A stretch of 64,000 nucleotides of DNA, from assembly GCA_003279605.1 (NCBI GenBank), contig QCHF01000001.1, positions 400,075-464,074 on the forward strand, in the 5' to 3' direction. Made by a program: the position numbers and the translations under genes. This DNA comes from SAR86 cluster bacterium AG-390-O18. GTDB lineage: Bacteria > Pseudomonadota > Gammaproteobacteria > Magnimaribacterales > AG-339-G14. Shown in pieces: positions 56,731 through 58,326 of the stretch; positions within the stretch are counted from its first letter, which is position 1, and every line of letters starts with the position of its first letter. The notes below the pieces were generated by a model. That model did not search any database and was not told the DNA's origin. It worked only from the letters and a program-made list of their open reading frames with translations.

Positions 56731-56831
56731 ATTTACCTTTTTAGATAAGGCATTAAATACTAAATAGAGATTAATATCAGTTTTTTTTAGAAAATTCTTT
56801 GAAAAAATTAAGTATATAACTAGAAAAGTAA

Positions 56832-56853
56832 TCCCTCTTGTTCCCAAGAGGGA
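56832..56853 (-). terminator. Intrinsic-terminator-like hairpin downstream of metY
   Basis: Perfect 9-bp stem TCCCTCTTG-(loop 4)-CAAGAGGGA just downstream of the metY stop, then TTACTTTTC on the minus strand. Confidence 0.65.
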
Positions 56854-56861
56854 TAAATTTT

Positions 56862-58169
56862 TTATTTTGAAGCTTTATCTATAGCTTGAGAAATATCTGC
56901 AATGATATCTTCTGCATTTTCAATACCAATAGATAATCTTACATATCCAGGAGTCACTCCTGCAGACAACTGCTCTTCAGGAGCAAGTTGACTGTGAGTA
57001 GTAGTAGCTGGATGAATTGCAAGAGATCTTGAATCTCCAATGTTAGCAACATGATAAAGAAGCTCTAGAGAATCAATAAATTTACTTCCAGCTTCTTTCC
57101 CGCCAGGTAACTCAAAACCAATAAGAGCACCATAACCACCAGTCATGTATTTATCTGCCTTTTCCTTTTCAGCACCTTCAAAAAGACCAGGATAAGTAAC
57201 TGATTGGACTTTTTTGTTTGAAGCTAAAAATTCAGCAACTTGTTTTGCATTTTTAGCATGTTCGCGCATTCTTAAAGGTAGTGTCTCTAATCCTTGAATA
57301 AACATCCAAGCATTAAAAGGACTCATAGCACCACCCAAGTCTCTAAGAAGAGTTGTTCTTAGTTTAAGTAAATATGCAAAAGGTAAGCCCATGTTTTTGG
57401 TTACTTGTTCATCCCAAACAACACCGCCGTAACACGGATCGGGAGTATTTAAGGCTGGCTGTCTATCAGCTCCAGCTTTACCCCAATCAAAATTACCACC
57501 ATCAAGAATAAGTCCTCCGATAGTTGTTCCGTGTCCACCAATATACTTTGTAGTTGAATAAGTGGTAACTGCAGCACCATGGTCAAACGGACGACAAAGT
57601 ACTGGAGCAGCAGTGTTGTCTACGATCAAAGGAATGTCATGCTTTCTACCTATTTCTGCAACTTCACCGATTGGAAATACTTGAAGTTTAGGATTAGGGA
57701 GAGTTTCTGCAAAATAAGCTCTGGTTTTGTCATCAGTAGCTTTTTCAAAATTAGCTGGATCTGTTGGATCAACAAATCTAACCTCGATTCCCATTTCTTT
57801 AAGGTTGTTTTTAAATTGGTTGTATGTTCCTCCATACAAATGTGATGAGGAAACAATATTATCCCCTGCTCTAGCAACATTTTGAATTGAATATGCTGAA
57901 GCGGTTTGTCCTGAAGAAACAGCCAGTCCTGCTGCTGCTCCATCTAAAGCCGCCATTCTTTGTTCTAGAACGTCACAAGTTGGGTTCATGATTCGGGTAT
58001 AAATGTTTCCGAATTCTTGCAAACCAAATAGGCTTGCTGCATGAGCAGTATCATTAAACTGATAACTTGTAGTTTGGTGAATGGGAACAGCTACTGAACC
58101 AGTAGTTTCATCATTACGCCACCCTGCGTGTAGAGCAATTGTCTCTATATTTTTTCCTTCATATGCCAT
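56862..58169 (-). CDS. metY: O-acetylhomoserine aminocarboxypropyltransferase (sulfhydrylase), start trimmed from 58226
   Basis: IETIALHAGWRNDETTGSVAVPIHQTTSYQF; AVTTYSTTKYIGGHGTTIGG (PLP lysine); ATG 58169 preceded by TATGGAGAT RBS-like sequence. Confidence 0.94.
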   Translation of the reverse strand: MAYEGKNIETIALHAGWRNDETTGSVAVPIHQTTSYQFNDTAHAASLFGLQEFGNIYTRIMNPTCDVLEQRMAALDGAAAGLAVSSGQTASAYSIQNVARAGDNIVSSSHLYGGTYNQFKNNLKEMGIEVRFVDPTDPANFEKATDDKTRAYFAETLPNPKLQVFPIGEVAEIGRKHDIPLIVDNTAAPVLCRPFDHGAAVTTYSTTKYIGGHGTTIGGLILDGGNFDWGKAGADRQPALNTPDPCYGGVVWDEQVTKNMGLPFAYLLKLRTTLLRDLGGAMSPFNAWMFIQGLETLPLRMREHAKNAKQVAEFLASNKKVQSVTYPGLFEGAEKEKADKYMTGGYGALIGFELPGGKEAGSKFIDSLELLYHVANIGDSRSLAIHPATTTHSQLAPEEQLSAGVTPGYVRLSIGIENAEDIIADISQAIDKASK

Positions 58170-58190
58170 GGTTAATCTCCATAAATTATT

Positions 58191-58223
58191 AAAAAAAAAC
58201 CTGTTTGCTTTCGCTAAACAGGT
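58191..58223 (-). terminator. Leader intrinsic terminator (attenuator) between SAM-II aptamer and metY
   Basis: Minus strand ACCTGTTTAGC-GAAA-GCAAACAGGT followed by a run of T (58191-58199). Confidence 0.85.
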
Positions 58224-58232
58224 CAAAAAAAA

Positions 58233-58286
58233 TCCTATTTAGCAAAGTTTATAAAGCGTTTGCAAGTCGGTTAAATCAACGCTATA
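58233..58286 (-). ncRNA. SAM-II riboswitch aptamer
   Basis: Minus strand TATAGCGTTGATTTAACCGACTTGCAAACGCTTTATAAACTTTGCTAAATAGGA. P1 AGCGTT/AACGCT, conserved loop GATTTAACCG..TTGCA, ATAAA, GCTAAA..GG as in known SAM-II. Confidence 0.92.
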
Positions 58287-58326
58287 AATGCAATATACAC
58301 AAAATTATCAAAAAAGAGAAAAAAAA

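Follow-up and report, generated by a model that had tools for sequence, protein, structure and literature searches.

The leader of metY in the window (the whole stretch of DNA analysed, 64,000 nucleotides) is very likely a SAM-II riboswitch that turns transcription off: SAM would capture the strand that otherwise builds an antiterminator. Comparative sequence analysis establishes the aptamer, the terminator that follows it, the exclusive pairing between aptamer and terminator strands, and the conservation of all of these. The host is a SAR86 gammaproteobacterium; its MetY is 98–99% identical to MetY of SAR86 cluster single-cell genomes. All sequence quoted in a preliminary description of this leader proved correct to the base at its minus-strand coordinates, and the SAM-II aptamer that it placed before metY was borne out by a full-length RF00521 match, by conservation across SAR86, and by identification of the target gene with TIGR01326 (596.6 bits; cut-off, 495.1 bits). 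The features are as follows.

58292..58297, minus strand: putative promoter, a −10-like TATATT 8 nt 5' of P1 with no clear −35, from sequence
58283-58191, minus strand: SAM-II aptamer plus intrinsic terminator, 21 nt 5' of the metY start
58255..58283, minus strand: P1 stem, AGCGUU (58283-58278) with AACGCU (58260-58255), from the RF00521 alignment and covariation
58262..58277, minus strand: aptamer loop GAUUUAACCGACUUGC with the P2 pseudoknot 5' strand, from the RF00521 alignment
58270-58269 and 58265-58262, minus strand: P2 5' strand within the loop, CC and UUGC
58234..58243, minus strand: aptamer 3' strand GCUAAAUAGG, proposed as the P2 3' strand with SAM and the antiterminator 5' strand without SAM
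58210..58246, minus strand: antiterminator helix, 58246-58234 with 58222-58210, in the minimum-energy fold without pseudoknot and conserved in relatives
58200..58222, minus strand: intrinsic terminator hairpin CCUGUUUAGC-GAAA-GCAAACAGG with one bulge, A58215 (fold, −13.4 kcal/mol)
58222-58213, 58212-58209 and 58208-58200, minus strand: terminator 5' arm CCUGUUUAGC, loop GAAA and 3' arm GCAAACAGG
58191..58199, minus strand: U9 tract of the terminator (nine T), from sequence
58177..58180, minus strand: Shine-Dalgarno GGAG of metY, 7 nt before the ATG at 58169
56862..58169, minus strand: metY, O-acetylhomoserine sulfhydrylase, 435 aa (TIGR01326)

A 4.5-kb scan with RF00521 (SAM-II) returned the aptamer on the minus strand with 33.1 bits (E = 7.9e-5), below the curated cut-off of 36 bits. 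Standard Rfam annotation carries no aptamer here because the score falls three bits under that cut-off. The above-threshold match expected in the preliminary description is thus absent from this genome, although 13 SAR86 relatives with the element exceed the cut-off. Because the cut-off is a curator's detection threshold rather than a structural feature, and because of those relatives, we file the metY leader as a SAM-II member on its sequence features despite the score. The second-best RF00521 match in the 1.28-Mb genome reached 13.5 bits (E = 1.1), leaving the metY leader as the sole credible one, and a search of viral contigs for the exact 22-base pattern gave 0 matches. The SAM-II core elements GAUUU, UUGCA and GCUAAA are present in the RF00521 alignment and conserved in 44 SAR86 loci, across which AUUU, UUGC and GCUAAA are invariant, and the location 5' of a methionine gene, metY, is likewise a feature of SAM-II members. 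Among these 44 distinct loci, P1 shows changes on both sides at four of its six pairs, with 97% of cells paired, and P2a shifts in step from CC/GG to CU/AG (two pairs with both-side changes); P2b is invariant, as expected since it forms the ligand site. That the leader is no working riboswitch at all, being either a degenerate copy or similar by chance, would fit the sub-cut-off score, but the position before metY has been kept through three SAR86 families while the stems covary, which makes this reading extremely improbable. The TATATT element is identical in most same-genus relatives, and a consensus promoter scan of the leader gave no full match.

Matches to RF00521 at E ≤ 0.01 were found in 81 of 121 SAR86 relatives, 13 of them over the cut-off, and in none of 14 control genomes. 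A model of the aptamer plus terminator recovered 75 of the 121, including some missed by RF00521, with no family f4 genome among the matches listed. An even sample of the phylum gave matches at E ≤ 0.001 in 84 of 398 genomes; 11 of these 84 are further genomes from the class, which makes SAM-II sporadic among gammaproteobacteria outside SAR86. The preliminary description had singled out the gammaproteobacterial setting, which is correct for the host and less surprising than supposed: sporadic gammaproteobacterial SAM-II was already reported in 2007 (PMC2258182), and alphaproteobacteria show a like logic.

The terminator hairpin is present, not as the plain 10-bp stem first described: its arms of 10 and 9 nt form 9 bp around the bulged A58215. 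It lies with its U tract between aptamer and start codon, as is characteristic of transcription-attenuating riboswitches, and a hairpin followed by a T run occurs 3' of the aptamer in 65 of 76 SAR86 aptamers of the same type. Among SAR86 loci, both partners have changed at five of the nine stem pairs. The two arms differ in constancy, with a mean entropy of 0.24 bits in the 5' arm versus 0.60 bits in the 3' arm, where AAA drifts to UGG, UGA or AAG while the UUU opposite stays mostly unchanged. In SAR86 families f1, f2 and f3 the 5' arm is one base longer than the 3' arm. Position A58215 (column 91) is invariant in 44/44 loci although the terminator in its commonest form leaves it bulged, and six f1 loci retain AG[C/U] even though it falls in the terminator loop there.

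The aptamer strand GCUAAAUAGG (58243-58234) can pair with the terminator 5' arm CCUGUUUAGC (58222-58213) over 10 bp with one U-G pair, as the preliminary description had it, and this pairing is kept across SAR86. In this genome the helix extends to 13 bp, UUU 58246-58244 reaching into the GAAA loop, and 10 of the 13 bp are common to relatives. Both antiterminator and terminator need CCUGUUUAGC and are therefore mutually exclusive, an arrangement conserved across SAR86. Antiterminator cells are paired in 90.7% of cases in the 44 loci, versus 22–51% with slid partners; the pair at column 62 (G58235-C58221 here) is broken in 12/44 rows, as is that at column 60 in 12/44. The expectation that relatives would retain the alternative pairing is thus upheld as regards conservation and not as regards covariation, which showed no excess over shuffles in the 44 loci. 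Covariation is uninformative on this helix, since GCUAAA is invariant and its partner, the terminator 5' arm, nearly so, and the constancy of the antiterminator strand has two possible causes because the same strand is the ligand site. The antiterminator is supported at the sequence level by conservation and by the asymmetry of the arms, not by covariation. A duplex of GCUAAAUAGG with its own terminator 5' arm and loop has a predicted energy of −14.5 kcal/mol, the best duplex with any of 33 other terminator-like hairpins from 464 kb of the same genome only −5.0 kcal/mol, and among shuffled arms the fraction as good as the median of real loci is 0.015%; the complementarity is not due to chance.

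Folded without the pseudoknot, the leader has a predicted ground state that contains the antiterminator at every length sampled from 70 nt, past the U tract, and the antiterminator is favoured over the terminator by 2.3 kcal/mol. Nearest-neighbour energies across 65 SAR86 loci favoured the antiterminator in 36 and the terminator in 29. The idea that the antiterminator generally dominates thermodynamically was rejected, as it does so in just those 36; elsewhere, if the switch works as proposed, the kinetic order, with the antiterminator strand made first, must matter, or the switch is weaker. We infer this role of synthesis order in folding.

It is possible that the aptamer is real and the terminator independent of it, the leader giving constitutive partial attenuation or a riboswitch-containing small RNA and the complementarity of the arm being a leftover of the terminator's origin. 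The missing covariation and the loci with a more stable terminator (29/65) agree with such independence, and in S. meliloti metA a terminator lies 3' of the SAM-II aptamer with no predictable SAM-II-driven antiterminator (PMC9373788). An independent terminator nevertheless leaves the fixed 5' arm beside a drifting 3' arm unaccounted for, as it does the independent and equally complementary pairs of alphaproteobacteria. It is also at odds with the metX leaders of some f2 genomes, in which the aptamer strand reads GCUAAUG, complementarity to the terminator arm is lost, and 2/7 loci (L251, L266) have another base in place of the arm's A, which is invariant elsewhere. We consider it unlikely.

Under the preferred reading of a SAM-controlled OFF switch, which was also that of the preliminary description, the aptamer 3' strand GCUAAAUAGG would stay free when SAM is scarce and would pair with CCUGUUUAGC once the next ~20 nt are made, depriving the terminator of its 5' arm so that transcription runs on into metY. 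With plentiful SAM, the ligand would bind and lock GCUAAA(U)AGG into the P2 pseudoknot, leaving CCUGUUUAGC to pair with GCAAACAGG, and polymerase would halt at the U9 tract before metY. The scheme would thus involve SAM binding, SAM-dependent termination and a kinetic order of folding, all three of which we infer. Such ordinary OFF logic is the general description for riboswitches (PMC2258182), and a similar one has been predicted for S. meliloti metZ (PMC9373788). Translational control is described for some SAM-II riboswitches (PMC6061858), and some f3 SAR86 metY loci have no recognisable terminator, as would suit control that is mainly translational or mixed, with SAM affecting access to the metY ribosome-binding site. 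Here, however, the Shine-Dalgarno sequence lies 53 nt past the aptamer, after a terminator with nine U, and no SAM-V (RF01826) or other second aptamer was detected before metY at E up to 5; we regard this alternative as very unlikely.

Several further SAM-II RNAs occur in SAR86, before metX, a Cys/Met PLP enzyme and an OmpW protein, and in a set that we call type B. Family f3 metY genes (L139, L157, L161, L197, L026, L194) are preceded by a SAM-II aptamer but by no clear terminator, as in GCUAAAGAGAAC..UUCUCUC, and probably use a different expression platform. In family f2, a SAM-II-like aptamer and a terminator lie directly 5' of metX (L248, L249, L250, L251, L252, L253, L266). The core there changes from GCUAAA to GCUAAUG, at an otherwise invariant position, and to judge from this change these aptamers may have a different ligand or pocket. 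An OmpW-family outer membrane protein is preceded by a tandem of SAM-II and then SAM-I/IV (RF01725, 52–69 bits) at L126, L141, L142, L146, L159, L186 and L190, with some of the SAM-II copies lacking a terminator; a SAM-II/SAM-I-IV tandem has been counted seven times (PMC9481103).

Type B is a second SAM-II-like RNA of the form UCGUGAUUUGAUCCUAUUGCCGCGA..GCUAAAACGGAA..UUCCCAGGAUUUAA, without a terminator, represented by L121:1386-1475 (minus strand), L125:301-390, L145:1386-1475 (minus strand) and L168:1386-1475 (minus strand) in an alignment (A2) of 37 loci. It scores 24–36 bits against RF00521 and was found in 40 of 121 SAR86 relatives and in 0 of 229 sampled genomes of the class; a search of the present genome did not find it. 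It lies before bhmT/mmuM-like homocysteine methyltransferases, metH and TonB receptors, and also before fatty-acid desaturase, carbonic anhydrase and lipoprotein-like genes. P1 covaries, P2 is invariant, and the aptamer loop has a complement in a conserved 3' extension (UUUGAUCCU/AGGAUUUAA); this alternative pairing has no excess of covariation. Sequestering of the Shine-Dalgarno sequence by the conserved UUCC was rejected as a mechanism (11/34 loci at p ≤ 0.05). We tentatively suggest, with somewhat less than even confidence, that SAR86 has an order-wide SAM-II regulon of several designs, comprising the metY type, with its competition between ligand and antiterminator for one and the same ligand-site strand, and type B as a previously undescribed variant that controls homocysteine methyltransferases, metH, TonB receptors and a fatty-acid desaturase by another mechanism and possibly with another ligand.

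In a tree of 52 MetY proteins, SAR86 forms one group that is sister to marine PS1/OCS116 alphaproteobacteria (support, 96/93). Old horizontal transfer of metY, perhaps together with its leader, from alphaproteobacteria is only suggested by this topology, because sampling covered only proteins that the query's own peptides matched. A strong hairpin CCCUCUUG..CAAGAGGG followed by a T run, close to the metY 3' end (56792-56868, plus strand), gave a PyrG_leader match below the cut-off and is probably an ordinary terminator.

Neither the riboswitch class nor its target gene nor this type of expression platform is new. As relatives conserve the whole switch, the metY leader counts as a further, well-supported case of SAM-II and not as a new principle. 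We found no paper on SAM-II in SAR86, in a literature search that lacked the primary paper on marine SAM-II/SAM-V leaders. How SAM-II affects gene expression was, according to a paper of 2007, experimentally unestablished (PMC2258182) and, according to one of 2022, not yet studied (PMC9373788); the metY leader, which is short, bistable and shared by dozens of SAR86 genomes, offers a convenient object for testing it. The results also indicate that methionine synthesis in an abundant and largely uncultivated lineage of the ocean is controlled by a riboswitch mostly missed at Rfam's cut-off, and some marine metagenomic SAM-II RNAs assigned to alphaproteobacteria may derive from SAR86.

Among known systems, SAM-II long loops (RF01726) resemble the SAR86 leader in fold and marine origin, although the match here is weak (22 bits) and far under the cut-off of 44 bits. 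The tandem SAM-II/SAM-V leaders of Pelagibacter (PMC2704228, PMC9481103) likewise belong to a marine organism with a streamlined genome and place SAM-II and then a terminator before a methionine gene, but they contain SAM-V, whereas the SAR86 metY leader does not. The SAM-II of alphaproteobacterial metA, metZ and metY (RF00521 SAM_alpha; PMC1273637, PMC2258182) shares P1, the P2 pseudoknot and the GAUUU/UUGCA/GCUAAA core, and likewise combines a downstream terminator, methionine genes and an inferred OFF logic. As in SAR86, complementarity links the P2 3' strand with the 5' arm of the terminator at most alphaproteobacterial loci examined. The SAR86 aptamer differs in being A+U-rich, with a P2a of just 2 bp, and the letters of the antiterminator differ too, as in ACAGGCCGG with CCGGCCUGU of the alphaproteobacterial locus L226, where the stretch at and just 3' of GCUAAA fits the terminator 5' arm. 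When strands were exchanged, those of SAR86 had a median of −12.2 with their own terminator arms versus −4.0 with alphaproteobacterial arms, the reverse swap discriminating less (−9.7 versus −11.3). SAR86 uses the whole ligand strand GCUAAAUAGG in its antiterminator, whereas alphaproteobacteria mostly use a G+C-rich stretch just 3' of GCUAAA; distinctive of SAR86 are the capture of the ligand strand itself by the antiterminator and the use of the switch throughout the lineage.
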